From NCBI GenBank assembly GCA_017469425.1, contig JAFUGJ010000085.1, forward strand, positions 1-64,000: a stretch of 64,000 nt of DNA. Direction: 5' to 3'. Under the pieces are notes generated by a model that was not told the DNA's origin, made no database searches, and saw only the letters and a program-made list of their open reading frames with translations. Numbering within the stretch: position 1 is the stretch's first letter; each line of letters opens with the position of its first letter. Shown here piece by piece: positions 30,099 to 56,814 of this stretch. Both the position numbers and the translations under genes were made by a program. This stretch comes from Bacteroidales bacterium (GTDB taxonomy: Bacteria > Bacteroidota > Bacteroidia > Bacteroidales > UBA932).

Positions 30099-30106
30099 CA
30101 AAAATA
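30099..30106 (-). promoter_or_regulatory. -7 element 4 nt from the ThiL-like start
   Basis: TATTTTTG on the minus strand between the MFS stop and the ATG at 30094. It marks the likely boundary of the 26.6-kb operon. Confidence 0.5.
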
Positions 30107-30110
30107 GCAA

Positions 30111-31382
30111 TTATTTCATTCTTTTTCGAGAGGACATGAACCAAACGACAAAAGTAAGCATGACGGATACGACCGCCGCACCGAACCAGAACCAGGACAC
30201 GGAAGAGAAATCGTAACTTCCGGCTGCGCTCTTTCCGCTTTCAATGGTGAGACCGCTCACAAAATCCTGAATGGCGGCACCTATATAACTTGCGATGCCA
30301 ACCACTCCGAGCGCCGCTCCGGATGAATTTTTGGGGGCGATGTCAACCGCCATGAGACCTCCCAGATAGCAGATAAGAGCCCCTATGGCAAGACCGAAAA
30401 CCACCATGCTCGCAATCATGCACGCACGCGTGGCCGGTCCGAAGAGGAAGAGGCCGAGTCCGCACACATTCATCAGCCCGAATATAACGGCAGGAGCATT
30501 ACGGCTTCCCTTGAACCACCAGTCCGACACGAAACCCGATATGACCGTTCCTATTATCCCACAGATTGAACTTATCGAGATGATGGAACTTGCCTCCAGG
30601 TTACTGAATCCCCTCTCGGCTTCGAGATAGAATATTCCCCAGCTGTTGACGGCATAACGGGAGATATACATGAAGGCGCTGGCAAACGCAAGGGTCCAGA
30701 TTGCCGGATTGCGGAGCACTTCTTTCTGCGACTCCCAGACAGATGCGCTCTTGGACTCGGAAGGGTGCTCTATCGGGGGCAGGCCGCAATCCTGCGGAGA
30801 ATTGCGAAGCAGGAGTGCAAGCGCCGCGGCACCGGCTATGCCCAGAAGCCCCGCCGAACGGAAGCCCCACTGCCATCCGAGGGAGGCTACCACTGCCGCC
30901 ACGATTATAAAGGTCAGAGCCTCGCCTATGTTGTGGCTTGCCGACCAGATGCCGTAATACCTTCCGCGCTTTTCGTCGGGAACCCAGCGGGACTGTGCCA
31001 CCACGCCTGCCGGAGCACCCATAGACTGCACCCATCCGTTGATGCCCCACATTATGATGAAAACCAGCGAGGAAGTGGTAAAGCCGAGTATCAGATTGAC
31101 GAGGCCCGCAATGAACAGCCCTGCGGACATGAAGCGGCGGATGTTGGCCCTGTCGGCCAGAAAACCGTTCACGAATTTGCCCACGGCGTAGGTAATGAAA
31201 AGGGCGGAGCCGATGATGCCGAGTTCGGTTTCGGACAGCACGCCATTATCCACGATGGGCTTCTTGACCACATTGAGGCTGAGGCGGCACACATAGTAGA
31301 GGCCGTAGCCTATGGTTGCCGTGATGAAAGTCTGAAGACGCAATTTGCGGTAACGGCCGCTCTCGTAAATGTTTTCAGTCAT
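30111..31382 (-). CDS. OPA-family MFS transporter (GlpT/UhpT/UhpC-like)
   Basis: The 423-residue inner-membrane protein has 12 predicted helices. Its organophosphate:phosphate antiporter family signatures are GYGLYYVCRLSLNVVKKP in helix 1, YAVGKFVNGFLADRAN, a GWVQSMGAPAG helix with SRWVP..KRGRYYGIWSASHN, and RNSPQDCGLP in the central loop. Members exchange inorganic phosphate for glycerol-3-phosphate, hexose phosphates or related compounds, or act as sensors (UhpC). The basic residues R and K early in the protein are retained. It is the last gene of the long operon, 10 nt after the GH3 gene, which suggests uptake of a phosphorylated product of that locus. Confidence 0.85.
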   Translation of the reverse strand: MTENIYESGRYRKLRLQTFITATIGYGLYYVCRLSLNVVKKPIVDNGVLSETELGIIGSALFITYAVGKFVNGFLADRANIRRFMSAGLFIAGLVNLILGFTTSSLVFIIMWGINGWVQSMGAPAGVVAQSRWVPDEKRGRYYGIWSASHNIGEALTFIIVAAVVASLGWQWGFRSAGLLGIAGAAALALLLRNSPQDCGLPPIEHPSESKSASVWESQKEVLRNPAIWTLAFASAFMYISRYAVNSWGIFYLEAERGFSNLEASSIISISSICGIIGTVISGFVSDWWFKGSRNAPAVIFGLMNVCGLGLFLFGPATRACMIASMVVFGLAIGALICYLGGLMAVDIAPKNSSGAALGVVGIASYIGAAIQDFVSGLTIESGKSAAGSYDFSSVSWFWFGAAVVSVMLTFVVWFMSSRKRMK

Positions 31383-31392
31383 GGCCTGTTTG

Positions 31393-33390
31393 TCACTTTA
31401 GTTCCACTTTTACAGAATCGCGTATGTCGATGCAGGAATTTCCGACCGATATTGTAAATACCCCGGGTTTTACCTTCCAGTCGTGCACGGATACATCGAA
31501 ATATGCAAAATCTTCCCTGTCGAGGTGCATTACCACCTTTTCGGAAGCGCCTTTGGGCAGCTTGACCTTTGCAAATGCCTTGAGTTCCCTTTCGGGCCGG
31601 GGAACGCATGGAGAATCTTCCCCGACATAAACCTGCACGGTGGCAGCGCCTTCATACCTGCCGGTGTTCCTTACGGTAACGCTCACATCGAAGCCGTCTC
31701 CCGAAGGTTCCACGGAATAGTTCTCAAAATCAAATCCGGTATAACTGAGACCGTATCCGAACGGATAGCGCGGGGCCTTGCCTTTATATCCCCTGTATCC
31801 AACGAAAACGCCCTCTTTGTAGCTTACAAAAGGAACCGAAAGGCCTCTCTTGGTATAGGGCTTTTCAAAACCCCACCACGGCTGGGAAGGATTGTCTTCT
31901 ATAGCCTCGGGGAAGGTGACAGGAAGTCTTCCTGAAGGGGAGAACCCGCCCATGAGCATTTCAGCTATGGCCAGTCCTCCTTCCTGCCCGGGATACCATG
32001 CCCATACAAGGGCAGAAACCTTGTCGGCCCAGCGGGAGACATCTACAGCTCCTCCGGCATTCACAACCACAATCACCGGCTTCCCGGAGGCAATCGCCGC
32101 ATCAATCATACCCTCCTGGCCCTCTGGCAGGGAGAAAGTCCGGTCGGAATGCTCCTTTTCGGTGGTTTTGTCAAATCCCACTGCAACAACAACGGCATCG
32201 GCCTTCGACATCGGAGCTTCTTTCACTCCAAGTTTGGAAAGCCCGCTGCGAAGTGACACTGAATAAACAGGTTCCACGGCTCCGCTGCCACCTCCGCATG
32301 GAATCACATCGGCTTTGGGCCCTATCAGGCACAAGCGTGAGTTCTTGCGCAGTGGCAGAATCCCGTCATTTTCGAGCAGGACCAGGCTCTCGCATGCAAG
32401 ACGGTATGCGACATCCCGGGAATAAGGGTTGTCTTCGGGAATGGAGGGGTCGAGCTGCGGCCTGTCGAGAAATCCGAAAGCGATGAAGGTCTGGAGCAGG
32501 CGACGGACCTTGGCATCTATCTGTTCTTCCGTGACAACCCCCTGTTCCAGCAGAGGGAGCAGTATTTCTTCTTTCATTGTAAGAGACCACGGCATTTCCA
32601 GGTCAACGCCGTCTTCCATTACGCTGATTGGCGAGTAGGTGGCGGTCCAGTCCGACATAGTGAATCCGTCGAAATGCCATCTGTCCCGCAGTGTTTTTTG
32701 AATCAGATAAGGGTTTTCCGTAGCATGCACGAAGTTTACCATATTGTAGGCCAGCATGACGGAGCCCACATTGGCGCGCTCCACCGCCGCCCGGAAGGCA
32801 GGGAAGTATATTTCGTTCATTGTGCGCTCGTCGGCTACGGAGCTGGAATGCAGGCGGTTCTCTTCTTTGTTGTTCAGCGCAAAGTGCTTGATGGTTGCCA
32901 TCACGCCCTCGGATTGGAGACCGTTGATATAGCCCACCGCTGTCTCTGCGGCAAGGCAGGGGTCTTCGCCGAAGTATTCGAAATTGCGACCGCACAACGG
33001 ACTTCTTGCAATATTGGCACCCGGGCCGAGCATGATGTGGACCCCGCGGGCCCGGGCGTCCTGTCCGAGAGCCTTGCCCATTTCATAAACAAGTGCGGGG
33101 TTCCAAGTGGCAGCTGCGGCCACTCCGCAGGCGTAGAGGGTGCTTCGTGTGTTGTTCCGCACGCCCTGCGGCCCGTCGGCGAGGCGGATTTCGGGAATCC
33201 CGAGCCTCTCCACCGGGGCTATATAGAATCCGTCGCGGTACCCTCCGAGCAGGGAAATCTTCTCGTGAAGGGTCATCTGCGAAACAAGGGCGGCTGCCCT
33301 GTCTTTATTTTCCTGTGTCACTTTCTGGGCCGAGCAGGGAAGGATTGCAATGATGCAAAGCAGGGCGCCCAGCACTTTATCTGATGCCAT
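31393..33390 (-). CDS. Glycoside hydrolase family 3, second type
   Basis: The 665-residue exported enzyme (signal to about residue 21) has the GH3 barrel with K168-H169 (TIKHFALNNKE) and nucleophile Asp247 (GFTMSDWTATYS). The alpha/beta sandwich (CLIGPKADVIPCGGGSG, LVWAWYPGQEGGLAI) and a fibronectin-III-like C-terminal domain follow. There is no PA14 insertion. The MLAYNMVN and MSDW.A signatures place it in the beta-glucosidase-like branch, away from the GH3 at 11404. Its first 14 bases overlap the end of the SGNH hydrolase gene. It is the only glycoside hydrolase in the long operon, so it probably trims a terminal beta-linked sugar from the imported compound. Confidence 0.92.
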   Translation of the reverse strand: MASDKVLGALLCIIAILPCSAQKVTQENKDRAAALVSQMTLHEKISLLGGYRDGFYIAPVERLGIPEIRLADGPQGVRNNTRSTLYACGVAAAATWNPALVYEMGKALGQDARARGVHIMLGPGANIARSPLCGRNFEYFGEDPCLAAETAVGYINGLQSEGVMATIKHFALNNKEENRLHSSSVADERTMNEIYFPAFRAAVERANVGSVMLAYNMVNFVHATENPYLIQKTLRDRWHFDGFTMSDWTATYSPISVMEDGVDLEMPWSLTMKEEILLPLLEQGVVTEEQIDAKVRRLLQTFIAFGFLDRPQLDPSIPEDNPYSRDVAYRLACESLVLLENDGILPLRKNSRLCLIGPKADVIPCGGGSGAVEPVYSVSLRSGLSKLGVKEAPMSKADAVVVAVGFDKTTEKEHSDRTFSLPEGQEGMIDAAIASGKPVIVVVNAGGAVDVSRWADKVSALVWAWYPGQEGGLAIAEMLMGGFSPSGRLPVTFPEAIEDNPSQPWWGFEKPYTKRGLSVPFVSYKEGVFVGYRGYKGKAPRYPFGYGLSYTGFDFENYSVEPSGDGFDVSVTVRNTGRYEGAATVQVYVGEDSPCVPRPERELKAFAKVKLPKGASEKVVMHLDREDFAYFDVSVHDWKVKPGVFTISVGNSCIDIRDSVKVELK

Positions 33391-34465
33391 ATTTCTTTAG
33401 AATTTTCAATAAGGGTTTGCGGATGGAACGGGCCCAGAGAGTATAGCCATAATCACCCGGGTGCGTGCCGTCAACGGAGGTATAGTGGTCGGAAGATGTT
33501 GCATTTGTGCATGTCAGGAAATAAACATCTTCATATTTCCTGCAGGCTTCCTTCATCATATTTTCCACAAGGGCTACGCGGTCGCTGTCCCATTTACGGT
33601 TGACCGTGTCGAAATTACCCCTTTCCCTGTAGATTGTCTGAAGGAAAACCAGGGGCTTTCCGGGATGCGCGGCCTTCATGGCCTCGATAAAGGGGTAGAG
33701 CCTGTCTTCAACCTCTTTTGGTGTAGGATTGGAGAAGGTGTCGAATACGAACGCATCAACATCGGGGGCCGCAGCAAGGGCTGCGGCAAAATAGTCCTGC
33801 AGTTTGCATCGCCCGCTCACACCAAGGTTCAGGAACAGAAGCCCCGTTTCGCGGGAAAGAATCGATGGCCAGGCCATTCCGGACTTGGAACAGGCAGCGC
33901 CTTGGGTAAAACTCGAGCCGAAAACCGCTATCCTGTGCCTGAAAGGATTCGCAAGAGGCCTGATGCCTGAGCCCTCGGGCACTCCCACCTTGAGGGAAAG
34001 GACTTCACTGAATCCAGGAAGATAGAGCAGACACTCTTTTTCCCCTTCGGGGAGATTGTTTATGATTTTGAGGGGCTTTCCGGGGGTTTTGTCGTCCGGC
34101 ACTCCGGAAGCAGCCCAGAGCCACTGCCCGTCTTTGCGGATGTAAAGGTCGTATCCCCTTGCCATGAAAGCATTGGAATTGAGGCTGTACGACTTATATC
34201 CGAATTCGGTGCAGAGAGTTATTGAGGGCGAATCTGTAACGAACGCCACTGCAAGGCCGGCAGAATTCTGAAGCAGGCGGATTTCGTGGGAGGTGAATCC
34301 CTTGTACGCAGCAGAATCAAGCCTGTGATAGGGATTCGGCGTTTCGGGGAACACTTTCCCTGTGATGGTCAATTCCGATGCTTCGGTAAAGGAAAGGGCG
34401 GCCCCGCCCTGTGCAGATGCAATCGTACACAGGAACAGGGCGGCCACTAATAAAGAATACCTCAT
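33377..34465 (-). CDS. Secreted SGNH/GDSL-type esterase
   Basis: The 362-residue protein has a signal peptide (MRYSLLVAALFLCTIASAQ), an N-terminal jelly-roll-like domain (about 20-165) and a C-terminal SGNH hydrolase domain. The catalytic blocks are visible: GSSFTQG (Ser of block I), NLGVSGR (block II Gly) and VDGTHPGDYG (Asp and His of block V). The order jelly-roll then SGNH resembles two-domain carbohydrate acetylesterases (CE2-like or related), so removal of acyl groups from a glycan is the likely role. It starts directly after the stop of the preceding lipoprotein gene (TAA-ATG, no gap) and overlaps GH3. Confidence 0.85.
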   Translation of the reverse strand: MRYSLLVAALFLCTIASAQGGAALSFTEASELTITGKVFPETPNPYHRLDSAAYKGFTSHEIRLLQNSAGLAVAFVTDSPSITLCTEFGYKSYSLNSNAFMARGYDLYIRKDGQWLWAASGVPDDKTPGKPLKIINNLPEGEKECLLYLPGFSEVLSLKVGVPEGSGIRPLANPFRHRIAVFGSSFTQGAACSKSGMAWPSILSRETGLLFLNLGVSGRCKLQDYFAAALAAAPDVDAFVFDTFSNPTPKEVEDRLYPFIEAMKAAHPGKPLVFLQTIYRERGNFDTVNRKWDSDRVALVENMMKEACRKYEDVYFLTCTNATSSDHYTSVDGTHPGDYGYTLWARSIRKPLLKILKKYGIR

Positions 34466-36274: not shown

Positions 36275-36280
36275 GGCCAT

Positions 36281-36287
36281 GTCCTCC
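36281..36287 (-). promoter_or_regulatory. Strong Shine-Dalgarno that decides the lipoprotein start
   Basis: GGAGGAC on the minus strand immediately follows the peptide stop codon. The AGGAGG core lies at optimal distance from the ATG at 36274. Confidence 0.6.
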
Positions 36288-36431
36288 TTAAAGATCCCAG
36301 TCTCCGTCTGAGCCGGTAATCCATGATTCAATTCCTCCGTCTGTGGACGGGATTGTGGCCGAGCCGCAAAGGACCTGGCCGCTTAGTAGTTCCGAGAAAC
36401 TGGTCTCGGGTATCGAGTATTTCTTTTTCAT
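36288..36431 (-). CDS. Small acidic peptide, Y-x-x-P...LL...C-x-S type (second copy)
   Basis: The 47-residue frame begins MKKKYSIP and shows Y5, P8, L15-L16, C22 and S24, then a Thr/Asp/Gly-rich acidic tail ending SDGDWDL. The spacing Y-2-P-6-LL-5-C-1-S equals that of the peptide at 1121-1258, with no gaps, although the other residues differ. Both copies precede a fimbrillin-like lipoprotein by 12-13 nt. There is no signal peptide, so if exported it would need the neighbour or another route. The gene lies inside the long operon, 37 nt after the EEP gene. Function is unknown. Confidence 0.65.
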   Translation of the reverse strand: MKKKYSIPETSFSELLSGQVLCGSATIPSTDGGIESWITGSDGDWDL

Positions 36432-36468
36432 ACGAAAAACAGGTGTGTTTCGAGGTTGCGATTCAAGT

Positions 36469-37431
36469 TTATAGTACAATGTCCAAGAGTATGGGCAGGT
36501 GATCGGAAGGACGGAAGAACGAGTGCACCTCCTTGCTTCGTACAGGGGAGGTGTACCTGTCTTCAACTATCCTTGCCTCTCTGACTTTTGCGGCAAGAGC
36601 TTCGGTAGTGTAAACGAAGTCGATGCGCTGGCACGACTGTGCCGATGCAAGGAAGCTTCTCGGGTTAAGCTCATGCACGATATCTATGTATGGCGTGCTG
36701 CCGAGCACATAGTCGTGCACCAGGAAACGGGTATCATCGTCGGGATAACCGTAAAACGCATTGTCGAGCCTTGATACCGCGTTGAAATCGCCCATCATCA
36801 TCCAATAATGCTCCGACGCTTCGGGGTCGGTAAGGATGGTGGAAGAGCAAATATACTCGAGTTCCATCCGGCGGTAACGGTCGCCTCCGCCACGGGCGGC
36901 ATCGGCGTCTTGCTCTGCCTTCGTGGCCTTTTTGAGGCGGAAGTCATAGGCAAGGGGGCATGTGTGCAGAGTCACGATTTCAAGCGACTTGCCGCGTATG
37001 TTTACCCTGGCCCAGCCCGCACCATGCACTACGAGGGAATCCGGTTCGGCCCCGGTTATCCTGGCAATGTTGCTGATGGGATATCGTGAAGTTATAACCT
37101 GGGGATAACTGTCCCTGTGCCCGCCCACATACACATATTTGTGACCGTAGCGGCGGGCAAGGATTTTCCAGTTATCGACAAGGAAGCGTTCCTCTGCGGG
37201 GAGGCGGCGGTCGGTACCCGTATAGTAGATGCTCTGGGCTTCGCACCAGACGCAGATATCGGGTTTCTTTTCCTTCACCCACCCCACGAATGCCTCGTAG
37301 TCATCCTCCTGCCCGGACCACATTCCGTTCTGTATGTTCCAGTACAGGAGCCGGAGAGGCTGTTCGCCGCCCCTGCCCCATGCACTGAAGCATAAAATCA
37401 AAACCGAGCAAAGAGTAAGGATTCTTTTCAT
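36469..37431 (-). CDS. Secreted endonuclease/exonuclease/phosphatase (EEP) family enzyme
   Basis: The 320-residue protein has a Sec signal (MKRILTLCSVLILCFSAWG). The complete metal-dependent EEP active site follows: YWNIQNG with Asn32, CVWCEA with Glu64, TLH with His156, MGDFN with Asp215 and Asn217, RIDFV with Asp271, and SDH with Asp310-His311. EEP enzymes cleave phosphoester or phosphodiester bonds in DNA, RNA, inositol phosphates or phospholipids. The substrate here is not given by sequence. It is very similar to the C-terminal domain of the lipoprotein at 48290-50782 (shared GMW, PDxCVWCEAxSI, YPQxITSRY), so both belong to one subfamily. It starts 4 nt after the IPT/NHL lipoprotein gene. 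Confidence 0.9.
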   Translation of the reverse strand: MKRILTLCSVLILCFSAWGRGGEQPLRLLYWNIQNGMWSGQEDDYEAFVGWVKEKKPDICVWCEAQSIYYTGTDRRLPAEERFLVDNWKILARRYGHKYVYVGGHRDSYPQVITSRYPISNIARITGAEPDSLVVHGAGWARVNIRGKSLEIVTLHTCPLAYDFRLKKATKAEQDADAARGGGDRYRRMELEYICSSTILTDPEASEHYWMMMGDFNAVSRLDNAFYGYPDDDTRFLVHDYVLGSTPYIDIVHELNPRSFLASAQSCQRIDFVYTTEALAAKVREARIVEDRYTSPVRSKEVHSFFRPSDHLPILLDIVL

Positions 37432-37435
37432 CAGA

Positions 37436-39280
37436 TTACTCGAGGGTCATTGTTCGGATAATGTTGCTGCCGCAGTTGGTGAAGTAGAACACACCTGTCT
37501 TGGGATCACGGCAGAGCTGTCCGGCCTGGTCTTTGGTGCAAACCTTTGCTTCCAAACCGGTTCCGTCGGTCAGGCCATAAGAATAAGGCTGTCCGGCGAT
37601 GGTTTTGAGGATACCCTTCGTGAAGTCACCGTCAACGCCGGGAACAAGGACGCGGATGAGGGCATGACGCATATCGATAAGATAAATGTATCCGTCTTCG
37701 GGATCCTGATAAAGTCCGGGAACGGGGCCGAGCGTAGCGGAAAGCGGGTTGCCGGGGTCACCGTCGGTAACTGTGGATGCATCGCCCTGCGTCGATTTGG
37801 GGCCGCCGCAGATAATCTTTGACTCTCCGCTTGCAAGGTTAATCATGATAAGACCCCATCCGTTGGCTCCCACGAAGATGTTCTCCTGCTTTGTGTCAAG
37901 AAGAAGGGAGTAAGGAGACTTTTCGATATTGTAGGCCTTTTCGAATTTGCCGTCATATACCGAAATAATGTTGAAGTGGGGAGCTTTCTGGTCGGTTCCG
38001 CGGGATGCAACGAACATGTGTCCGTCTTTGTGGAACTTAACGCTCATGGGGTTGCCGAAATTGAAGTCTGCAGGAAAGTCGGCGATAGTATAGGTGGACC
38101 AGGTTCCGTCCTTTGCCACTTTGCCGATGACATGCTTGCCTTTGCATGCGATATGGAATTCACCATTGGCGTCGAAGTCGCCGCCCCAAGGATAGAATCC
38201 GCTTCCGATTGTTGCGGGAGCCACGATTGTGGTCACGGAGTAATCAGAGAGGTCTGCCTTGAAAATACCATGCGCAGCAGTGCTGCCGCGGGTGCTGATC
38301 CACAGACTTCCGTCAGGAGCGATGCCGCAATATTCGGGAAGCTGCAGTGCAGCCTCTTTTCCTGTTCCCTCTATGTTGGCAGCCTTTCCAGCGCCGATTA
38401 CCGTAGCGAGCGTGGCCGTTTTAAGCTTGTAGAAAACGAAATCGGGAGTATCGACAGCAACGGCGCCCTTCACTGCCACATTGAACTTGTACTGTCCTTT
38501 CTGGAGTTCGGGGAGCGTAACAGTAAGGGAAGTTTCAGTTACGACGCTTACGGAAACGGCTGTTCCGTTGACGGTGACAACATTGTCGGCAAGGGTCTCG
38601 GAGAAACCTGTTCCGGTAATTGTGATTTCGTCGCCAGTGGTTCCGATAGGAGGATTGACAGCCTCAATCGTCACAACCCTGTCAACCTTATAACTGAAGG
38701 TTCCTGCAGGAACGACTTCGTCACCCTTCTTCACGAGAACGGCAACCTCGCCGCTTCCTTCGGGAGCAGTGACGGTAATCTTGGTGTCCTCAAGTTCCTT
38801 AATGGTGGCAACTGCGTCAGCGAAGAGGACCTGGAGGGCGCTCTTGTCGGTGCCGAAGTTGGTGCCGCTGATAACCACATCCTCACCCACTTTGGCCTCT
38901 GCCGGGGCAATACCGCTCACGGTAATGGGCTTCACGACTTCGAGATAGGTGAATTTCTCAGCTGCGGATTTCTGTCCGCCCACGGTAACAGTAACATCAA
39001 CTTCGCCCACGGGATTCTCGGGAACGGTAACGGTAAGGGAAGTGGCACTTGCCTTTGCAACGGTTGCGGCGGCAGTGCCGAAATTCACGGTGTTCTCCGA
39101 TGCAGTGGCGGAGAAATCCTTTCCGGAAATCACCACCAGGTCACCGGCGTAGCCGCTGTTGGGAGCGATGGATGTGACGGAAGGAACCACTTTCGTCTCT
39201 TCCTTTGGTTCATCATTCTTGCTGCAGGAAATCGCAATGAGCGAAATGGCTGCAAGAGAGATTAACAATGCTTTTTTCAT
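37436..39280 (-). CDS. IPT/TIG-repeat and NHL-propeller surface lipoprotein
   Basis: The 614-residue protein has a lipoprotein signal (SLIAISC). Three IPT/TIG immunoglobulin-like domains follow (about 30-115, 118-197, 200-285), each opening with a P..G..GD.V.I.G..F pattern. An NHL-type beta-propeller runs from 290 to the end (YCGIAPDGSLWISTRG, NPMSVKFHKDGHMFVASRG, GTGLEAKVC, IIRTMTLE). Such multi-IPT lipoproteins downstream of SusD commonly act as surface glycan-binding proteins, where the IPT domains form a spacer and the C-terminus binds ligand. Its C-terminal propeller is paralogous to that of the lipoprotein at 34466-36274. An ATG two codons further upstream is possible. Confidence 0.88.
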   Translation of the reverse strand: MKKALLISLAAISLIAISCSKNDEPKEETKVVPSVTSIAPNSGYAGDLVVISGKDFSATASENTVNFGTAAATVAKASATSLTVTVPENPVGEVDVTVTVGGQKSAAEKFTYLEVVKPITVSGIAPAEAKVGEDVVISGTNFGTDKSALQVLFADAVATIKELEDTKITVTAPEGSGEVAVLVKKGDEVVPAGTFSYKVDRVVTIEAVNPPIGTTGDEITITGTGFSETLADNVVTVNGTAVSVSVVTETSLTVTLPELQKGQYKFNVAVKGAVAVDTPDFVFYKLKTATLATVIGAGKAANIEGTGKEAALQLPEYCGIAPDGSLWISTRGSTAAHGIFKADLSDYSVTTIVAPATIGSGFYPWGGDFDANGEFHIACKGKHVIGKVAKDGTWSTYTIADFPADFNFGNPMSVKFHKDGHMFVASRGTDQKAPHFNIISVYDGKFEKAYNIEKSPYSLLLDTKQENIFVGANGWGLIMINLASGESKIICGGPKSTQGDASTVTDGDPGNPLSATLGPVPGLYQDPEDGYIYLIDMRHALIRVLVPGVDGDFTKGILKTIAGQPYSYGLTDGTGLEAKVCTKDQAGQLCRDPKTGVFYFTNCGSNIIRTMTLE

Positions 39281-39302
39281 AATCATAAATTTTAATGAAT
39301 GG

Positions 39303-44150: not shown

Positions 44151-44156
44151 ATTCGT

Positions 44157-48283: not shown

Positions 48284-48289
48284 ATCTGA

Positions 48290-50782
48290 TTATTTCATTC
48301 TGAAGTCAACAAGCACCGGACGATGGTCGGAAGGGAAACAGAGGTATCCTGTCACATTTTCGACCTGATAGGGATTGGCCCAGGAATCGGTGAGTATTAC
48401 CGCATTCGCAACCCTTTCGTACATCTGGGGCGAAGCAAACATATAGTCTATGCGGCTCGTGGCAGCGCACACAGATGTCATGAATGCACCGGGATACTGT
48501 TCCGCAATTATGTCGTGGTAGTCGGTAGTTTCGAGTATCTGCTTCTGGGCAAGATACTGTGTGGAGCCAGTGCCCAGTTTGTAGTAATGCTCATCATTGG
48601 GCGACTTGGAATTGAAGTCTCCCATCATTATCCAGTTTTTAACATTCGCATATTCGGGATTGTTCCTGGTCTGGGAAATCACATATTTCACTTCATGTTC
48701 CCTGTAATAGTCGCCGCCATGGGCAGCCGTGGAAGCATCCCGCTCCGATGACGGAACATCGAACGCATAGGATTGGGCATAAGGATGGAGGGTGACTATG
48801 TAAATGTCTTCCCCTGCAACAGTAATGCGGAACAGCCCGGCACCACTCACGACCGGCCGTCCGGTTTCGTCCGTGTCGGTAATGCGTTTCAGCGTCGTGA
48901 TGCTGTAGCGCGAGGTAATGGCCTGGGGATAATTGTTCCTGTCGCCGCCAAGTGCGTAATAGCCATGATTGTATTTTGGATAGAGCGAAGGCCATGCATT
49001 GGTGAGCATGGATGCCTTCTCAGTCTTGGAGAGGTAGGTTCCGGATGCATTGAAGATTGAACGGGCTTCGCACCACACGCAAACATCCGGAGAGTAACGC
49101 TTTACCCATTCTATGAAATTGCTGTAATTATTGTACTGGTCGGCCCACATTCCATCCTGTATGTTCCAGTACATCACGCGGAATGTTCCGTTGTCGCGGA
49201 CACTGCGGTCTTTGGTTTTGCGGATTTCTACATTGTCGAGCCAGAATCCGTGCGTTCCCTTGCCTTCATCGGCGGTGGAGATACGGAAATATGTGGCGTC
49301 GTTCGCATTGCGTATCTTCAGTTCCGCCCTGTGCCAGCGCTTGTTTTCGGCCATGGAGCCGGTGAGGTATGCCTGCGTCTCAAAATTGCAGGTGTGTGTC
49401 ACGGCAACATATCCGGAACCTGAGCCAAGGGTTTCAAGCTGCTGACCGTCAACCGACACCGACTCGATGTATCCTCCGTCAACAATCTGCACCTGCGGCA
49501 TGTCCTTGATGCCGGGGCTAAGCACAAAGTCGAAGCTCAGGGTAAGGTCGGACAGCCCGCCGATTACGCCCATCGGCACGGTCTGCCAGATGCCCCTGCT
49601 GTCGTCGCCTGTGCCTACGGCAATGTAGCCGGGATGCTCCTGACAGCGATAAAGGAAGCGGTAGTCGCCTATATTGCGGCTTGCCACATAGGCAGCGCTC
49701 ATTTTGTGAGACTGTTCCACGGTCTTTCCGGCCACATCCATGAAAATGGTGGACTGGATGAATCCCGAGCCGGGCTGGGTGTATGGCACGGCAACCAGGG
49801 CCTTTTCATAACCCCGCAGGCTTGCATCCGCCTCGGTTCCGGTATCTTTGCCGGTAACGGCGAACCCGGCACCTTTGCTTCCCGCTACTATATCTCCTCC
49901 CCATACGAAATTGTCGAAGCCGTCGTAGAATATCACTTCGCTGTCGGGAGCCCAGTCGGCGTTGCAGGCAACAACCTCATCGGAAGCAATTGCCGTATTG
50001 CTGACATGTATCCTCTGCACGCGGTGCTTCTTATCCGTGACAGTCACATCAAGCCCGGAAGGATACTCTCCGGCCGCAACCAGCACAATGAACTTGCTTC
50101 CTCTTGCTGCGGTGCAATTCAAATTCGCCCAGCTGAACCCTTTGGACATCACATTCGCCTTCCTGGAAACCATATAATTTCCTACTCCGGACAGGAGGGC
50201 CCCGTCTGCAGCGGAAACATTTACCGACACGATATCTTCAGCACCGGCCAGCGTGAGGGCAAGCGCCCCGCAACCGGGAGACAGGTATAGGATATTGCCG
50301 TTCGAGCTGTCGTAGGAAGCGAACTGCGGAAGGGTGGCCACATCGTCGGTAAAAGAATCAAGGAACTGGCCCTGAGGGAGTATCAGGGATGTGTAGGTTG
50401 AGGAGCCTGTGAACTTTTCCGCCCCGGGGGCAAGCATTGAGGCATTGTAAGTTGCCGTCTGGTTTGCCGCCGCTTCGATAAAATAATCTCCATTTTCATC
50501 CTGCTCAACGGGATATTCCTTCCCTCCTACCGTAACCGTCTGTCCATCTCCCGGCTTAAACGCGACCCCGGAGGCATCACAGACTCCGCCTTCCTTGAAT
50601 TTCAGGTAAAACTTCACCTTCCCGTCAACCACCCGGATAGGTTCGCCGGGCTTGTCCGTTTCCTCTATATTGGGCCCGTCGGGATCATCAGGGCTGTCTG
50701 TTCCTGTCGTTTTCTTCGAACAGGAAAGCAACACCAGTCCGCTTGCAAGAATCAAGAATAATCTGTTTGTCAATCGTTTCAT
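48290..50782 (-). CDS. Lipoprotein with C-terminal EEP enzyme domain
   Basis: The 830-residue protein has a lipoprotein signal (LVLLSC, Cys21) and a Thr/Asp/Pro-rich linker. An N-terminal beta region follows (about 50-290), then a jelly-roll-like binding domain (about 300-520: FWLDNVEIRK strand at its end). The complete EEP phosphoesterase domain at 532-830 has YWNIQDG, CVWCEA, TLH, MGDFN, RIDYM and SDH. All catalytic residues are present. The domain is closely related to the separate enzyme at 36469-37431. Lipid anchoring suggests it acts at the cell surface, before import through SusC. The start is set at the ATG at 50782, which overlaps the susD stop by one base (TGATG). Confidence 0.87.
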   Translation of the reverse strand: MKRLTNRLFLILASGLVLLSCSKKTTGTDSPDDPDGPNIEETDKPGEPIRVVDGKVKFYLKFKEGGVCDASGVAFKPGDGQTVTVGGKEYPVEQDENGDYFIEAAANQTATYNASMLAPGAEKFTGSSTYTSLILPQGQFLDSFTDDVATLPQFASYDSSNGNILYLSPGCGALALTLAGAEDIVSVNVSAADGALLSGVGNYMVSRKANVMSKGFSWANLNCTAARGSKFIVLVAAGEYPSGLDVTVTDKKHRVQRIHVSNTAIASDEVVACNADWAPDSEVIFYDGFDNFVWGGDIVAGSKGAGFAVTGKDTGTEADASLRGYEKALVAVPYTQPGSGFIQSTIFMDVAGKTVEQSHKMSAAYVASRNIGDYRFLYRCQEHPGYIAVGTGDDSRGIWQTVPMGVIGGLSDLTLSFDFVLSPGIKDMPQVQIVDGGYIESVSVDGQQLETLGSGSGYVAVTHTCNFETQAYLTGSMAENKRWHRAELKIRNANDATYFRISTADEGKGTHGFWLDNVEIRKTKDRSVRDNGTFRVMYWNIQDGMWADQYNNYSNFIEWVKRYSPDVCVWCEARSIFNASGTYLSKTEKASMLTNAWPSLYPKYNHGYYALGGDRNNYPQAITSRYSITTLKRITDTDETGRPVVSGAGLFRITVAGEDIYIVTLHPYAQSYAFDVPSSERDASTAAHGGDYYREHEVKYVISQTRNNPEYANVKNWIMMGDFNSKSPNDEHYYKLGTGSTQYLAQKQILETTDYHDIIAEQYPGAFMTSVCAATSRIDYMFASPQMYERVANAVILTDSWANPYQVENVTGYLCFPSDHRPVLVDFRMK

Positions 50783-52509
50783 CAGTTCCAATTAGGATTT
50801 TGGGTTATTGCTCCGCCGGTGAGCACTATGTCATCGGTGGGTATGGGGTATAAATAGTCTCTGTCTTCGCGCCAGTTCCTGGGAATATTGCCGAAACGCA
50901 CTATGTTTCCGCTCATGCCTTGGGTGAGCGCAAGGTCGGCTATGTTGGAATAGGCCACCCCGCTTTCCACTGCGGGTGCATCGCCGAGGTATATGCAGAA
51001 ATCAACGCTTCCATTGCCATCGAGGTCGTAAGTTCCGGGGCCGGGGAAATACATCCCGACGAAAGGCCTGTCAAATCGTTTCCCTTCTTTCCAGCGCATG
51101 ATGTCCCAATACCTGAATCCTTCGCACACCAATTCTATCGTACGCTCCCTCCGGATTTCAAGTATTATCCCCTTGTTCGGGCCGCTTACATTGCGGTAGC
51201 CTGTCACAGGGTCGCAGAGATATGGGTCAGGAGCCGCATTTGCTGACGACAAATCAAGGGCGGGCATACCCACGCGGCTGCGGAGCAGGCACACAGTCTC
51301 GTCGAGGTCGGCCTGCGTGATGGTTCCCAGCTCTGCCTTTGCTTCTGCGTAATTGAGATAAACCTCTGCAATCCTGAAGAGAGGGAGGTCGTTCTCGGAG
51401 GTGTTCGAGATGTCGTAGCGTGCTTCCCCGACAAACTTTGTTATCTGGTAACCGGTCAGCGTCGCGTTCATGTCGGGCGCCACCCACGAATTGCTGCCCA
51501 CCCTGGTATATCCTGGAGTACGGATGGTCTGCGCCAGCCTGGGGTCGCGGTTTTGGCATTCTGCCACAAAATCGAGGTTGTCGAAATCTTCGCCGGAAGT
51601 AAAAGTGCTTCCGTCTTTCATCAGATACATGTCAACCACATCCTTCAACAGGCCGGAACGCCCCATCGTGGTGGATGTGAAATAGTCGTTGGCGTTGTGG
51701 GTCAGGCCCATCGACAAGCCGTACGACTGTGCAAGTATCACTTCCTTGCTGATGGTGTTTTTGCTGAGGAAAAGGTCGCGGTACGGAGTCTCCCCTTCAG
51801 TGTAGAGGGAGTAGCCTCCGTTATCGATAAGTTCTTTGCATGCTAATATGCATTCGTCGAGGCATTCCTCCCACCCGGGAAGCCCGTGATACTTCCGGAA
51901 TGTTCCTTCAAACAGGAAAATGCGGCTCTTGAGGGCAAGTGCGGTCCAGCGTGTCACCCTGTAATCTTCATGTTCTGAAGGAAGGGTCGCAATGGCTTCG
52001 TTGATGTCTTCGAGGACCCTGGCACACACTGTCTGCCTGCTGTCCCTTTCCTTATAAAGGGTAATGTCTGCAGGGTCGAGGGTGTGGTCGTACCAGGGGA
52101 CATCGCCGAAGCGCCGCAGTTTGTCGAAATAGAAGAATGCCCTGAAGAATTTGGCAAGACCGCAGTATTCCGCACGCACAGCCGCATCGTCGCATCGCCA
52201 GGCATTTTCGAGGAAGAAATTGATTTCCCTGAGGGCATCCCATGTCCAGTTCTTGTCCTTCGACGATACGAAGCGCGCCCCGCGGATTTCGGGGGCCAGC
52301 GTACTCTTGATTATTATGTCGGCTCCTTCATCGAAGATGGCGGCTCCTGAAGGCAGGATGCGGTAGAAGCGGTTTGTATAGAGGCGGCACTGCGTTTCAT
52401 CCTTGAAGAAGTCCTCAACGGCAAGCGAATCCTCCGGCTCCTTAACCAGGAAAGATGAGCAGGAAGCGGCGGCAAACGCACAGAGCAGATATGTGATAAT
52501 CTTCTTCAT
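50782..52509 (-). CDS. SusD/RagB family outer-membrane lipoprotein (second pair)
   Basis: The 575-residue protein has a lipoprotein signal (FAAASC, Cys17) and SusD features: an N-terminal helical region (LVKEPEDSLAVEDFFKDE, LAKFFRAFFYFDKLRRFGDVPWY, RWTALALKSRIFLFEGTFRKY) and a C-terminal RagB/SusD block (PLFRIAEVYLNYAEAKAELG, LRSRVGMP, IRRERTIELVCEGFRYWDIMRW, LYPIPTDDI). It is larger than the first SusD and only distantly similar to it, so the two pairs probably take different ligands or different fragments. It lies 4 nt after its susC. Confidence 0.95.
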   Translation of the reverse strand: MKKIITYLLCAFAAASCSSFLVKEPEDSLAVEDFFKDETQCRLYTNRFYRILPSGAAIFDEGADIIIKSTLAPEIRGARFVSSKDKNWTWDALREINFFLENAWRCDDAAVRAEYCGLAKFFRAFFYFDKLRRFGDVPWYDHTLDPADITLYKERDSRQTVCARVLEDINEAIATLPSEHEDYRVTRWTALALKSRIFLFEGTFRKYHGLPGWEECLDECILACKELIDNGGYSLYTEGETPYRDLFLSKNTISKEVILAQSYGLSMGLTHNANDYFTSTTMGRSGLLKDVVDMYLMKDGSTFTSGEDFDNLDFVAECQNRDPRLAQTIRTPGYTRVGSNSWVAPDMNATLTGYQITKFVGEARYDISNTSENDLPLFRIAEVYLNYAEAKAELGTITQADLDETVCLLRSRVGMPALDLSSANAAPDPYLCDPVTGYRNVSGPNKGIILEIRRERTIELVCEGFRYWDIMRWKEGKRFDRPFVGMYFPGPGTYDLDGNGSVDFCIYLGDAPAVESGVAYSNIADLALTQGMSGNIVRFGNIPRNWREDRDYLYPIPTDDIVLTGGAITQNPNWN

Positions 52510-52513
52510 GGTG

Positions 52514-55500
52514 TCAGAATGTCAAGCTTATGCCAAGTGAATAAACCTTATACCAGGGATAGGTATTGCCGTTACGGTCGCTGTGCGCGGAAATCTGCTC
52601 CGGGTCAACATATTTTCCATGCACCGCACTCCATGTGAGAACATTCTCTCCGCTGAAGCAGATTCTGGCCTCCGACAGCCCGGCCTTGGATATAATCCGC
52701 CCGGGGATATTGTATGCGAGCGAAATGTTTTTCAGTCTCAGGTAGGCGAGATTCTGCAGATAGCGGGAGTTGGTATAGTATAGGGAACCGCTCGTGGATG
52801 AAAGCGCGGCATATCCCCTCGGTCTCGGGAAATACGCTCCGGTATTATCCTCAGCCCAGACATCGTTCATGAAACCCTTGGGAACGAAGGAGGCATAAGG
52901 ACGGGAATAAGGCCCCCAGAAACGCATGTTTTCGTGTCCGGGATACCAGTCCATGTGCCCTATCCCCTGAAAGAAAAACTGCAGGGTCCATCCGCTCCAC
53001 GACACATTGCCCCTCAATCCATAGTGCCAGCGGGGAAGGCTGTTGCCTATCACTTTCTGGTCGCCGGGATCCTTGAGGGTATTGTTGCCAGAGGTGATTT
53101 TGCCATCGCCGTTGAGATCCACATACTTCATGTCTCCGCCCCTCACTCCGCGCGAATCCTCATTGAACGAAGAGAAGTACCCCGGACTTATCTGCGACAG
53201 GTCAACCTTGGCGGCATAGGCGGCCGCTTCTTCATCGCTGGAGAATAGTCCATCCACTTCATATCCCCATATTTCACCAAGCCTGCGGCCGGGATAAGGT
53301 TCCGTAAGAAGGCCCGAAGGATTGTCGCAGCGCATGTATGTGGATATGTAGTCGGACAGCGTTGCCGTTATCCCATATTTCAGTTTTTTGCTCCACAGGA
53401 CACATTCGTCATTCCACGAGAGGGTTAGCTCGAAGCCCTTGGTCCTTATGTCATGGGCATTCACCAGAGGTTCAGTTGCGCCGTAGAACGAAGGCAGGGC
53501 CTGGCCGGAAGTGAGAATCCCGATGGCATCCCTAACATATATATCCGCCGATGCAGTGAGCCTGTTCCCGGCAAGTGTCATGTCGAGGCCTGCATTGCTC
53601 GTTATTATTTTCTCCCAGGTGCCGGTGTCAACAGGGTCATCCGCAACGGCATACCTGCCCAGTGTCTTTCCATCGAAAGAATAGCGCATGAAATTTCCCG
53701 TATGAATGGTCTGCCAGTATGCATATTCGTTGATTGACTGGTTTCCCAGCGAGCCGTAGGAAGCCCTGAATTTGAGTAGGGAAACAATTCCGCGGAAGTT
53801 ATCCCAGAATGGTTCGTCGCTGATTCTCCAGCCCCCGGAGAAAGACGGGAAGAGCCCCCATTTATTCCCTTTGGGGAAGCGGGAGGATCCATCGAAACGG
53901 CCGTTCGACTCAAACAGGTAACGCCCCTTCCAGTCATAGGAAAGGCGGTAGAAAAAGCCTGCAAGGGAATACTCCTTCACGCCTCCGGTGAGTCGTTTCA
54001 CCTCGCCCACGGCAAGGTTGAAATCCGACATGCTTTCGGAAAGGAGATCCTTCCTCTGGACAGTCAGCTGCCTGCTGGTCCAGTCTTCATAGGAACCGCC
54101 GCCCACGGCTGTGAGGTGATGGCGGCCGGCGAATGTGCGTTCATAAGTAAGGAAGGCATCAAAGGAATTCCTCCGTGTGCGTGTATCCTTTTCGGAAATA
54201 TAATCCTCGTAGGCGTTTTCGGGTTCGTACGCAGTTTCGCCCGGATACATTGAATATGCCGCAGGGGCACTGCGGTAGAGATTCTGCAAAGTATAGGAAT
54301 GGAAGGTGTACGAGCCTTTGAGGGATAATCCGGGCAGAAGGTCGGCAGTAAAATCGATGGTGTTGTACGACTGTTCGTCGGTGTTGGTTCCTCCTGTATT
54401 TCCGCTGCGAATCATGGAATTGTAGCCCGACATTATGAAGTGGGCCGATGAATTGGTGAGCACGGTGTGCGAGACGCTGGTGCCGTCCGGGTTCACAGGC
54501 AGGAAAGAGGGCAAGGCATGAATGGAAGGACGATAGAAGTTGATATACTGCGAATCCGTTCCGAGGTATTTATATCCCGAATTATAGTAACGGGAACTGT
54601 ATCCGAGGCTCAGCCAGTCGCGAAGCTGCATCTGAACCCTGCTCGAAAGGGTGTAGGAACTGAACCTGTCGGGCCCCATGCGCTGTATGCCCTGCTGGTC
54701 GTAGAAGCGGCCGCTGATTTTATACGAAACCCTGCTGGAGCCACCGGAAATCTCAATATTGTAATCCTGGGTCGGACGGGACTCGTTGTACAGATAGTCA
54801 TACCAGTCGAAATTGCCGAGGTAGATGTAAGAAGGCACACCGTCGCGCATTTCCGTAACAGTCCAAGGGCGTTCAGCCACCGGTTTCCTGTCGCCCCTCC
54901 GTTCATACAGGCGCTGATAGTCGGCATCCGTATATCGTGTGTAAGGGATACCGGAAACCGATGACAACATAAACTTGTCTGCTATCTTGGCGGCATCGTA
55001 TCCCCTTGTTTCGTAGTTGGTGGAAACGGTGTTCGCCGACAAAGAGAACCTCATGTTGAGGCTGACTTTGGGAGGCCTGTCACGCTGTCCGCTCCGGGTG
55101 GAGATAAGAATCACACCGAATGCCCCGCGCACACCATATATTGCAGCGGAAGAGGCGTCTTTAAGTATTGAAATTGACTCGATGTCTGCAGGATTCACGC
55201 TCATGGGATCGGTTTCCACTCCGTCCACGAGAATCAGGGGATCTCCTCCGTTGAGGGATGTCTTTCCCCGTATGTTGAACAGCGAAACCGCACCCGGCTG
55301 TCCGGATTCCTGCAGGATGTTCAGGTTGGATACCATTCCCTGCATCACCTGTCCGATTCCGGCAACCGGCCTGTCCTTCATATCCTTTTCGTCGAGGACA
55401 GACACCGCTCCGGTGACATTCTGCTTCATCTGCACGCCATATCCCACCACCACAGCCTCTTTGAGGACATTAATCATCCTTGCCGCACTGCGGACCTGCC

Positions 55501-55870
55501 CGGTATCGGCCGGAGGGGTGGAACTAGTGGCAAAAACATCCGAGTACAGGGTGTCGGCAATGATTTTCCTGCGCTCGGGAATCAGCACAATGCGCTCTTC
55601 GAGAATCAGGCAGCGCATATCAGGGAAAACCATGTTCAGGATATCCACAAGCTGCATATCCTTTACCTTGACGGTGACCCGCTTTGAGACATTTACCTCA
55701 TTGTTATTGAAGAAGAAAGCAAGGCCGGTTTCATTTTCAATGCTGCGGAACAGTTCCAGCACGCTCACATCCTCAAGATTGAGCGTAAGCTTCTGTGCTT
55801 CAAGCGTATGGTTGATTGCCTGAAGACACGACAAAAGAACAGTCAAGATGATAATCCGACTCCAGCGCAT
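52514..55870 (-). CDS. SusC/RagA transporter with STN signalling domain (second pair)
   Basis: The 1118-residue protein has a signal peptide and then an STN (secretin/TonB N-terminal) domain (about 25-100: LNLEDVSVLELFRSIENETGLAFFF, MQLVDILNMVF, RIVLIPERR). STN contacts the periplasmic part of FecR, so this transporter should signal substrate capture to the ECF sigma factor. A short Ser/Thr/Pro linker leads straight to the plug (VLKEAVVVGYGVQMKQNVTG, SILKDASSAAIYGVRG). The carboxypeptidase-regulatory-like domain usually found between STN and plug appears to be missing. The barrel ends in LGISLTF. It lies 21 nt after fecR. Confidence 0.95.
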   Translation of the reverse strand: MRWSRIIILTVLLSCLQAINHTLEAQKLTLNLEDVSVLELFRSIENETGLAFFFNNNEVNVSKRVTVKVKDMQLVDILNMVFPDMRCLILEERIVLIPERRKIIADTLYSDVFATSSTPPADTGQVRSAARMINVLKEAVVVGYGVQMKQNVTGAVSVLDEKDMKDRPVAGIGQVMQGMVSNLNILQESGQPGAVSLFNIRGKTSLNGGDPLILVDGVETDPMSVNPADIESISILKDASSAAIYGVRGAFGVILISTRSGQRDRPPKVSLNMRFSLSANTVSTNYETRGYDAAKIADKFMLSSVSGIPYTRYTDADYQRLYERRGDRKPVAERPWTVTEMRDGVPSYIYLGNFDWYDYLYNESRPTQDYNIEISGGSSRVSYKISGRFYDQQGIQRMGPDRFSSYTLSSRVQMQLRDWLSLGYSSRYYNSGYKYLGTDSQYINFYRPSIHALPSFLPVNPDGTSVSHTVLTNSSAHFIMSGYNSMIRSGNTGGTNTDEQSYNTIDFTADLLPGLSLKGSYTFHSYTLQNLYRSAPAAYSMYPGETAYEPENAYEDYISEKDTRTRRNSFDAFLTYERTFAGRHHLTAVGGGSYEDWTSRQLTVQRKDLLSESMSDFNLAVGEVKRLTGGVKEYSLAGFFYRLSYDWKGRYLFESNGRFDGSSRFPKGNKWGLFPSFSGGWRISDEPFWDNFRGIVSLLKFRASYGSLGNQSINEYAYWQTIHTGNFMRYSFDGKTLGRYAVADDPVDTGTWEKIITSNAGLDMTLAGNRLTASADIYVRDAIGILTSGQALPSFYGATEPLVNAHDIRTKGFELTLSWNDECVLWSKKLKYGITATLSDYISTYMRCDNPSGLLTEPYPGRRLGEIWGYEVDGLFSSDEEAAAYAAKVDLSQISPGYFSSFNEDSRGVRGGDMKYVDLNGDGKITSGNNTLKDPGDQKVIGNSLPRWHYGLRGNVSWSGWTLQFFFQGIGHMDWYPGHENMRFWGPYSRPYASFVPKGFMNDVWAEDNTGAYFPRPRGYAALSSTSGSLYYTNSRYLQNLAYLRLKNISLAYNIPGRIISKAGLSEARICFSGENVLTWSAVHGKYVDPEQISAHSDRNGNTYPWYKVYSLGISLTF

Positions 55871-55891
55871 AGAATGTCCTGTAAATAAATT

Positions 55892-56704
55892 CTACCTGAT
55901 GGAGACGGTTTCCCCCGAAAGGAGGTTGATGGTTGCGAGTATGGTATCCACGCTCTCGCCCCTTACGGTCATCGAGAGTTTGATATCGTGGGCTTCAAGA
56001 GTGTCGCTTATGGCAAGGCGGACGCCGAACCAATGCTCAAGAGAGGAAACCACCTCATCAAGAGGCATGTTTTCCATAACGAGCTTGTCGGAAATCCATA
56101 GGCTGTGGCACTTTGCATCGGTATCGGATACTGTCCAGGTGCTACCGTCGAAGGCAATGCTCTGGTCGGGATGCAGTTGCGTTGTGGCAAGGCCCTTGCC
56201 ATTCACCTTGATGGAACCTTCTTCCAGCCAGGCCGCAGGGAGAGCATCCTTATATGCCGATACGGTAAACTTTGTGCCGAGGACTGTTATGTCCATATCG
56301 CCGGTTTCCACCACAAAGGGATGTTCCGCATCCTTCACCACATCGAAATAGGCCTCCCCGCTGAGTTTCACGGTCCTTGTCGAAGAACCGAAGCCGGGAG
56401 CATATTCGAGGCTGGAATTCCTGTTCAGCCAGACGCTCGAACCGTCGGGAAGCGAGAATTGGGTCTTCTCGGCATCGGCGAGCAACATAACACTCTCCTG
56501 CCTGTTCGACCCTATGAAAACACCTGCAAAAACTACAGCAATAACTGCTGCCGAAGAAAGGATTGAGACCGTGCGCCTGCGTATGGCCCGCTCCTTAGAA
56601 AGACCTTTGGACAGAACCGCATCGGCCGATGAAAGACCCTTCCCTTCAAGAGGAGAAGCGGAATCCCATATCTGCCTGAGCCTGTCTTCTGATACTTTGG
56701 TCAT
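55892..56704 (-). CDS. FecR family anti-sigma factor
   Basis: The 270-residue protein has a short cytoplasmic part (1-42), one membrane helix (about 43-64, TVSILSSAAVIAVVFAGVFIG), and a periplasmic FecR domain (about 75-165: KTQFSLPDGSSVWLNRNSSLEY, VKLSGEAYFDVVKD, PFVVETGDMDITVLGTKFTVSAY). The C-terminal DUF4974 region (190-265: MENMPLDEVVSSLEHWFGV) resembles STN and binds the transporter. It should hold the divergently encoded sigma factor inactive until the STN-SusC reports ligand. It is first in the long operon and has its own TATATTTG element. Confidence 0.93.
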   Translation of the reverse strand: MTKVSEDRLRQIWDSASPLEGKGLSSADAVLSKGLSKERAIRRRTVSILSSAAVIAVVFAGVFIGSNRQESVMLLADAEKTQFSLPDGSSVWLNRNSSLEYAPGFGSSTRTVKLSGEAYFDVVKDAEHPFVVETGDMDITVLGTKFTVSAYKDALPAAWLEEGSIKVNGKGLATTQLHPDQSIAFDGSTWTVSDTDAKCHSLWISDKLVMENMPLDEVVSSLEHWFGVRLAISDTLEAHDIKLSMTVRGESVDTILATINLLSGETVSIR

Positions 56705-56712
56705 ATCCGATT

Positions 56713-56720
56713 CAAATATA
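56713..56720 (-). promoter_or_regulatory. -7 element for fecR and the long operon
   Basis: TATATTTG on the minus strand, 8 nt before the fecR ATG. ECF-dependent promoters may have other signals nearby that I cannot identify. Confidence 0.5.
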
Positions 56721-56786
56721 ATGATTTTATTGATATGACGACTTACTGCAGCAAAACACGTAATTACATTTTTTGGAAATAAGAAT

Positions 56787-56794
56787 TATCTTTG
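56787..56794 (+). promoter_or_regulatory. -7 element for the ECF sigma gene
   Basis: TATCTTTG, 20 nt before the proposed GTG start at 56815. It lies inside the longer in-frame open reading frame and so argues for the later start. Confidence 0.5.
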
Positions 56795-56814
56795 TATTCC
56801 AAACTAATAACCAA

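Follow-up and report, generated by a model that had tools for sequence, protein, structure and literature searches.

A SusCD operon with two EEP-superfamily enzymes in a Bacteroidales genome and its possible role in the use of a phosphate-bearing glycopolymer

The window analysed here is a 64,000-nucleotide stretch of a Bacteroidales bacterium (contig JAFUGJ010000085.1, positions 1 to 64,000), in which 16 co-directional minus-strand genes span 30111-56704, from fecR to a gene for an MFS transporter. Two SusC/SusD pairs lie in this operon together with two enzymes of the EEP superfamily, EEP1 and EEP2, and the gene for an extracytoplasmic function (ECF) sigma factor diverges from fecR. From fecR to the MFS gene the intergenic gaps are 21, 4, -1, 6, -4, 6, a short overlap, -4, 16, 4, 37, 7, 0, -14 and 10 nt, values that depend on the start codons we picked. 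The original prediction, made from this sequence before the present analysis, that every gap is 37 nt or less is true if a 47-aa peptide is counted as a gene. It had also described many ATGA overlaps; the 4-nt ATGA overlap exists, in just two cases, and the remaining overlaps have other lengths. We assigned signal peptides, lipoprotein signals and the STN-like N terminus of SusC1 by visual inspection. The features are as follows.

56773..57345, plus strand: ECF sigma factor, divergent from fecR (TIGR02985 3.2e-38; Sigma70 r2/r4)
56713..56720, minus strand: promoter-like element ahead of fecR, TATATTTG (a single TAnnTTTG match, by itself not evidence of function)
55892..56704, minus strand: FecR-type anti-sigma factor (PF04773 1.1e-16)
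52514..55870, minus strand: SusC1, TonB-dependent transporter (TIGR04056 3.7e-210; N-terminal extension STN-like, by eye)
50782..52509, minus strand: SusD1 (PF07980 6.3e-44)
48290..50782, minus strand: EEP1, a long N-terminal region and a C-terminal EEP domain (PF03372 1.1e-9)
47237..48283, minus strand: L348, no Pfam family; relatives adjoin EEP and SusC2
44157..47240, minus strand: SusC2 (TIGR04056 3.6e-248)
42651..44150, minus strand: SusD2 (PF07980 8.4e-27)
41690..42676 (start approximate), minus strand: BACON-domain protein (PF13004 7.3e-8)
39303..41693, minus strand: DUF5689 protein (PF18942 2.2e-10)
37436..39286, minus strand: TIG-domain protein (PF01833 1.3e-40)
36469..37431, minus strand: EEP2, stand-alone EEP enzyme, signal peptide by eye (PF03372 4.3e-9)
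36288..36431, minus strand: 47-aa peptide, in a slot common to the related loci L043 and L171
34466..36280, minus strand: NHL-like protein, 604 aa (NHL at E 0.035 only, below cut-off)
33377..34465, minus strand: SGNH esterase, GxDLY and Lipase_GDSL_3 (solved relative 4lhs)
31393..33390, minus strand: GH3 glycosidase, nearest to beta-glucosidases (domain and PDB matches)
30111..31382, minus strand: OPA-type MFS transporter (TIGR00881 1e-75, under the curated cut-off; GlpT 1pw4 5.8e-47)

Domain searches found the content that had been described: two SusC/D pairs, two EEP enzymes, six other lipoproteins or peptides, and one each of SGNH esterase, GH3 and MFS transporter. The adjacent SusC and SusD genes of a Sus-type polysaccharide utilization locus (PUL) are present twice, and glycan-degrading enzymes, the other mark of such loci, are not the main enzymes, with one GH3 and one SGNH esterase in 16 genes. 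The C-terminal half of the TIG-domain protein is probably an NHL-type propeller, to judge from the relative L062_8, which has TIG and NHL. PHROGs gave no match for EEP2, the 47-aa peptide or L348, a PDB search with the NHL-like protein returned no useful match, and an Rfam scan found one tRNA as its sole match.

The EEP domains of EEP1 and EEP2 share 38% identity. When the two window domains were aligned with 40 of 41 relatives (the truncated L065 was omitted; L numbers denote loci of relatives), E64, H156, D215, N217, D271, D310 and H311 (EEP2 numbering) were invariant in 42/42 sequences, and N32 was kept in all 37 sequences that reach it. We take the invariant positions to be the usual EEP catalytic residues. 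With PF03372 above cut-off and these residues conserved, both enzymes fall within the EEP superfamily. Searched by itself, EEP2 matched no PDB sequence at E 1. An EEP1/2 profile searched against the PDB at E 0.01 matched LINE-1-type endonucleases only (best 3.1e-9); the solved mannosyl-6-phosphatase 4c1r is missing from these matches, and the two enzymes do not class as 4c1r-like. By sequence comparison, the EEP1/EEP2 family is far removed from any solved structure. A third EEP, present in sister loci and not in the window, does match 4c1r (E 7.9e-17); its similarity to the EEP1/2 profile is no more than remote. A search of plasmids with EEP2 gave no match.

Fused forms of EEP occur in related loci. 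A gene of about 850-900 aa follows EEP2 at 7204-9852 of L043; the window has only 36432-36468 at this place and lacks the gene. Pfam identifies its product as an NHL-EEP fusion in L043 and L062; in L063, L094, L096, L097 and L171 it was taken as one by length and similarity. L093 and L100 are without both this gene and the NHL-like protein. In a Cacconaster genome, a histidine phosphatase (branch 2) is fused to an EEP2-type domain (L101, 8735-10888, the same as L044); L045 and L046 resemble this fusion by length alone. The 47-aa peptide of the window (36288-36431) has counterparts of like make-up at the equivalent position, ahead of the NHL-like protein, in L043 (9871-10014) and L171 (near 13650), and a 50-aa peptide of comparable make-up is found in L080.

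Relatives of EEP2 are present in 5/295 genomes drawn from the order (E 1e-15) and in 49/299 genomes drawn from the family (E 1e-10; 4/25 genera). Among named genomes, 425 candidate stretches encode one. The best 80 of these 425, which we took, are chiefly metagenome-assembled genomes (MAGs) with Bacteroidales or Bacteroidia in the title, many of which derive from the guts of ruminants, and also include Parabacteroides, Alistipes, Cacconaster, Prevotella and a few titled Flavobacteriales. The closest relatives among these 80, at 86-87%, come from the MAGs RUG10780 (RUG presumably standing for rumen) and SRR12081293 bin 22.

We fetched 120 loci via EEP, so that an EEP gene is present in them by construction. 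In 26/120 of these loci we see a SusC2 relative with 50% identity or more and, around it, the block EEP-L348-SusC2-SusD2-BACON-DUF5689-TIG, complete or partial (L042 and L092 are one locus, L151 and L152 are near-duplicates, and L068 and L081 differ in order). Genes of relatives were called by a home-made codon-usage caller, which missed the EEP gene in L116, L127 and L140 and called L057 badly. For a fair test, given that EEP was the fetching criterion, we searched from SusD2 to EEP. In the 299 genomes, with the window and its ortholog counted, 11/13 scored SusD2 relatives have an EEP match within 10 kb, where random placement, assumed for all our expected values, would give 0.42; the two without a nearby EEP are the most distant ones. 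SusD1 relatives have an EEP within reach in 9/109 cases (1.41 expected), and most are not EEP-linked. The best 5 or best 4 candidates per genome were scored, so that 13 and 109 are counts of those scored, and 2.5 Mb was taken as the size of every genome. Since SusD2 tracks EEP and SusD1 does so much less, SusC2/D2 is an EEP-dedicated pair; SusC1/D1 is a member of a broad clade in which EEP linkage is confined to a minority. The search for other SusCD loci with the same EEP subfamily, proposed with the original prediction, thus had a positive outcome, the block of SusC2/D2 and EEP recurring in gut and rumen Bacteroidales, and because it recurs in relatives the operon is a more-than-chance cluster.

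Genes for other phosphoester-related proteins are linked to EEP loci. NAGPA (phosphodiester glycosidase) lies within 8 kb of 8/26 EEP loci in 8 genomes (0.61 expected), a count biased by the choice of several of these genomes after NAGPA was noticed in them. In 40 other genomes with EEP, not picked for NAGPA, it is near 4/45 loci at 8 kb (0.45 expected, P 0.001) and 7/45 at 15 kb (0.85 expected, P 2e-5). The NAGPA-EEP link stands, since the enrichment repeats in these unpicked genomes, though some of the positives are sister genomes. Within the fetched set, NAGPA is near 8/42 SusCD-linked vs 0/61 other EEP loci, and an OPA carrier is found within 9 kb in 8/42 vs 0/61 (Fisher P 5e-4), in differing positions. 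Over 24 picked genomes, the OPA-EEP link is modest, with OPA near EEP at 15 kb in 9/59 loci vs 3.4 expected (P 0.006). GDPD lies within 4.5 kb of 19/103 OPA carriers (2.0 expected), and the sister loci L094 and L096 have the gene order GH3-GDPD-OPA. Parsimony on the EEP tree gives 12 changes for SusCD linkage, 8 for OPA and 4 for NAGPA.

Many of the 24 genomes were already known to carry NAGPA or core-block loci when they were picked. The NAGPA test covered 8 genomes of this set, which hold 26 of the 59 EEP loci, and the NAGPA rows of the genomes G588 and G088 and one under the cut-off were omitted. The 103 carrier rows exclude unlisted rows, rows of weaker match and the second half of any split match; from the test in further genomes we omitted two NAGPA rows under the cut-off and the second half of a split carrier match, and there G554 and G557 are probably sister genomes, as are G513 and G468.

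Several layouts recur. L062, L063, L066 and L171 have SusCD-NAGPA-TIG-EEP2, with SGNH in three and GH3 in L062 and L063; L065 and L079 have SusC1/D1-BACON/NAGPA-EEP2-MFS; and L216 and L217 have sigma-EEP2-fecR-SusC1/D1-NAGPA, an arrangement that places the EEP gene within the regulatory pair (ECF-sigma-like/fecR). SusC1/D1 relatives accompany EEP2 and NAGPA (L216, L217), a histidine phosphatase (L214) or DUF5689 (L212, L213), in regions that were hand-picked, partly for their neighbours, and whose rates are no test.

The carrier of the window is of the organophosphate type, as had been claimed. It is homologous to GlpT/UhpT over its whole length and has the substrate arginines, which places it in the OPA transporter family, and its leading PDB match, GlpT, is followed by SLC37A4 glucose-6-phosphate exchangers. 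The aligned columns contain the arginines and histidine of GlpT that we take to be substrate-site residues. Because the protein scores under every NCBIfam equivalog cut-off, no substrate was assigned to it. The solved protein 4lhs, which the SGNH esterase matches, is uncharacterised, and the GH3 enzyme matches beta-glucosidases in a PDB search.

What we observed is the gene content, the intact EEP catalytic residues and the repeated occurrence of EEP beside SusC/D genes of this type and beside phosphoester genes. On these observations we give an even chance to the reading that the operon is PUL-like, under sigma/FecR control, and serves the use of a phosphate-bearing glycopolymer that is most likely phosphodiester-linked or -decorated. 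We infer a pathway in which localisation, substrate, flow direction, diesterase activity and regulation, and every step from binding onward, are predicted. The putative surface proteins SusD1, SusD2, BACON, DUF5689, TIG, NHL-like and L348 would bind the polymer, EEP1 and EEP2 would hydrolyse its phosphoester bonds, and SusC1 and SusC2 would take in the resulting pieces. The SGNH esterase would strip acyl groups and GH3 would trim a beta-linked sugar, and the OPA-type carrier could, in this strain, bring into the cytoplasm a phosphorylated product such as glycerol phosphate or a sugar phosphate. A signal from SusC1 would reach the divergent sigma factor via FecR. The esterase, the beta-glycosidase, the GDPD of sister loci and the GlpT-like carrier would all be explained by a teichoic-acid-like polymer. 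The phosphodiester-bearing polymer of the original prediction is supported in part, as a phosphoester substrate, through the SusD2-EEP linkage (11/13), NAGPA (4/45 and 7/45) and the OPA-type MFS. Its claim that a phosphorylated product is taken up agrees with the type of carrier and is at odds with the carrier's absence elsewhere, described next.

A number of results weigh against this phosphate-glycopolymer reading. In the window locus, neither NAGPA nor GDPD is among the domain matches, and 61/103 fetched EEP loci have no same-strand SusC/D within 6 kb; the loose tie between SusD1 and EEP belongs here too. The OPA-EEP link in the 24 picked genomes is modest, at 8 kb (5/59 vs 1.9, P 0.04) as at 15 kb. 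In 41 further genomes the window's MFS type lies within 15 kb of 0/49 EEP loci (0.46 expected), so that the OPA link is confined to some lineages, and in the three closest orthologous loci, L043 (the same as L092), L093 and L100, GH3 is followed by a thiL-like gene, with no MFS. All linkage tests ignore shared descent. As the third EEP of sister loci matches a mannosyl-6-phosphatase, EEPs of such loci can be monoesterases, and those of the window may be monoesterases rather than diesterases; the NHL-EEP fusion of L043, located between EEP2 and the 47-aa peptide, has an EEP domain that matches 4c1r. A GDPD-EEP link was rejected in the 24 genomes (3/59 vs 2.3 expected at 8 kb, P 0.4), and the count at 15 kb is not significant (7/59 vs 4.1, P 0.11). 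At L141 (10953-11876), a stand-alone EEP2 is followed by a 307-aa type I phosphodiesterase-family protein (Pfam), and 307-aa genes, alike by length, stand in the equivalent place in other EEP loci.

The EEPs could be phosphomonoesterases that dephosphorylate a phosphate-decorated polysaccharide, its glycosidic backbone being cut by enzymes encoded elsewhere. We consider this unlikely. The 4c1r match of the third EEP, the histidine phosphatase-EEP2 fusion of L044 and the presence of GH3 and SGNH genes in the locus speak for it, and we take the Bacteroides thetaiotaomicron EEP active on yeast mannan (4c1r) to be BT3783, from a mannan PUL. However, EEP2 lacks a PDB match, the EEP1/2 profile is remote from the third EEP, a single glycosidase is found in 16 genes, and the NAGPA enrichment suggests sugar phosphodiesters. 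Quite improbable, in our view, is phosphate scavenging akin to the PUS of Flavobacterium, in which SusCD and phosphoesterases would draw phosphate from mixed organic phosphorus under shortage. In PUS loci, phosphodiesterases or phosphatases accompany SusCD, and phosphate depletion induces these loci (PMC8115612), but the control genes at the window locus are ECF sigma/FecR, and the PF00149, PF16670 and PF00245 enzymes of PUSI/PUSII are not among the locus domain matches. The esterase, the glycosidase and the sugar-phosphate-type carrier would also better suit carbon use.

Capture of nucleic acids, with the EEPs as nucleases and DUF5689 proteins as surface DNA binders, seems less probable again, and we would be surprised to find it. 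It draws on the LINE-1-type endonucleases as the profile's only PDB matches, on a Riemerella DUF5689 protein reported as necessary for natural transformation (PMC8459023), and on a survey that proposes nucleic acids for some phosphodiesterase SusCD loci (PMC6499787). EEP2 relatives also adjoin purine-synthesis genes at L119, L122 and L157 (PurL of L119 by Pfam, the others by eye), yet these are EEP2 loci without SusCD. The operon's Pfam matches include no nucleoside or base salvage family, and NAGPA, GH3, SGNH and OPA would have no clear part in nucleic-acid use.

The window locus shares features with several known systems. It has SusC/D pairs, surface proteins, and sigma and FecR genes like Sus-type PULs under ECF sigma/FecR, whereas it has one glycosidase and its recurrent enzymes are phosphoesterases. 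GlpQ-GlpT is a system for glycerophosphodiester use; the window carrier is GlpT-related and its kin pair with GDPD in sister genomes, but the window locus has no GDPD and the diesterase step would fall to an EEP. The mannosyl-6-phosphatase 4c1r is likewise an EEP-superfamily enzyme acting on a sugar phosphate, though it is the third EEP of sister loci that matches it and not EEP2. The PUS (PusCD) of Flavobacterium johnsoniae is described as SusCD-type loci with phosphoesterases in place of carbohydrate-active enzymes (CAZymes), and the sole EEP tabulated there is labelled an orphan outside PUS loci (PMC8115612). By family, the two EEP genes would make the window locus a SusCD locus with phosphodiesterases or phosphatases of this kind; it differs in its EEPs, sigma/FecR, SGNH, GH3 and OPA carrier. 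A 2019 survey lists CAZyme-free SusCD loci with a phosphodiesterase (576 of 14,713), counting PF00149 and PF01663 and not EEP (PMC6499787). The window locus shares with these the combination of SusCD and, by prediction, phosphodiesterase, and falls outside the CAZyme-free set because it has a GH3. Since phosphoesterase SusCD loci are already published in these two works, the EEP-based type is the new part; a literature search found no title on EEP enzymes in SusCD loci or on teichoic-acid PULs, a weak negative given its limited coverage.

A wider reading, which we hold only tentatively and think rather doubtful, is that these loci form a recurrent class in gut and rumen Bacteroidales, feeding on phosphodiester-linked microbial wall or capsule polymers (teichoic-acid-like or glycosyl-phosphate), with EEP1/EEP2 as a new polymer-cutting phosphodiesterase family and OPA import in some lineages. 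If the phosphate-glycopolymer reading is right, it would name enzymes that let gut and rumen Bacteroidales recycle polymers linked by phosphate, point to a food source overlooked by CAZyme-based PUL prediction, and make an EEP beside a SusC2/D2-type pair a marker for finding such loci. The diet of CAZyme-poor SusCD loci becomes testable via two modest enzymes.

The ends of the operon carry promoter-like elements. Besides the match ahead of fecR, TATTTTTG (a TAnnTTTG match, 30099-30106) sits between the MFS gene and a thiL-like gene, in agreement with the promoter predicted directly after the last gene. The claim that no TAnnTTTG lies inside the operon failed, as three coding-strand matches, all intragenic, are found at 30149, 36848 and 48436. 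The window contains 27 matches in total vs 23.2 (sd 5.3) in shuffles, i.e. the shuffle level. The thiL-like gene is only 16 nt downstream of the MFS gene on the same strand, so the operon end rests on one promoter-like match.

Other genes were noticed near related loci. DUF6377 proteins, possible regulators, lie near the EEP-SusCD loci L068, L078 and L149 (L077 by similarity). In Parabacteroides faecis (L107), a compact SusC-SusD-EEP2 arrangement is followed by a polyphosphate kinase-like gene, as judged by eye. Alistipes montrealensis (L119) has EEP2 with no SusCD in the region viewed, and neither of these two species showed the core block. A run of three genes in L212 (156-5131), near a SusC1/D1 relative, encodes an EEP, a beta-helix-containing GDSL esterase and a GH65-family protein.

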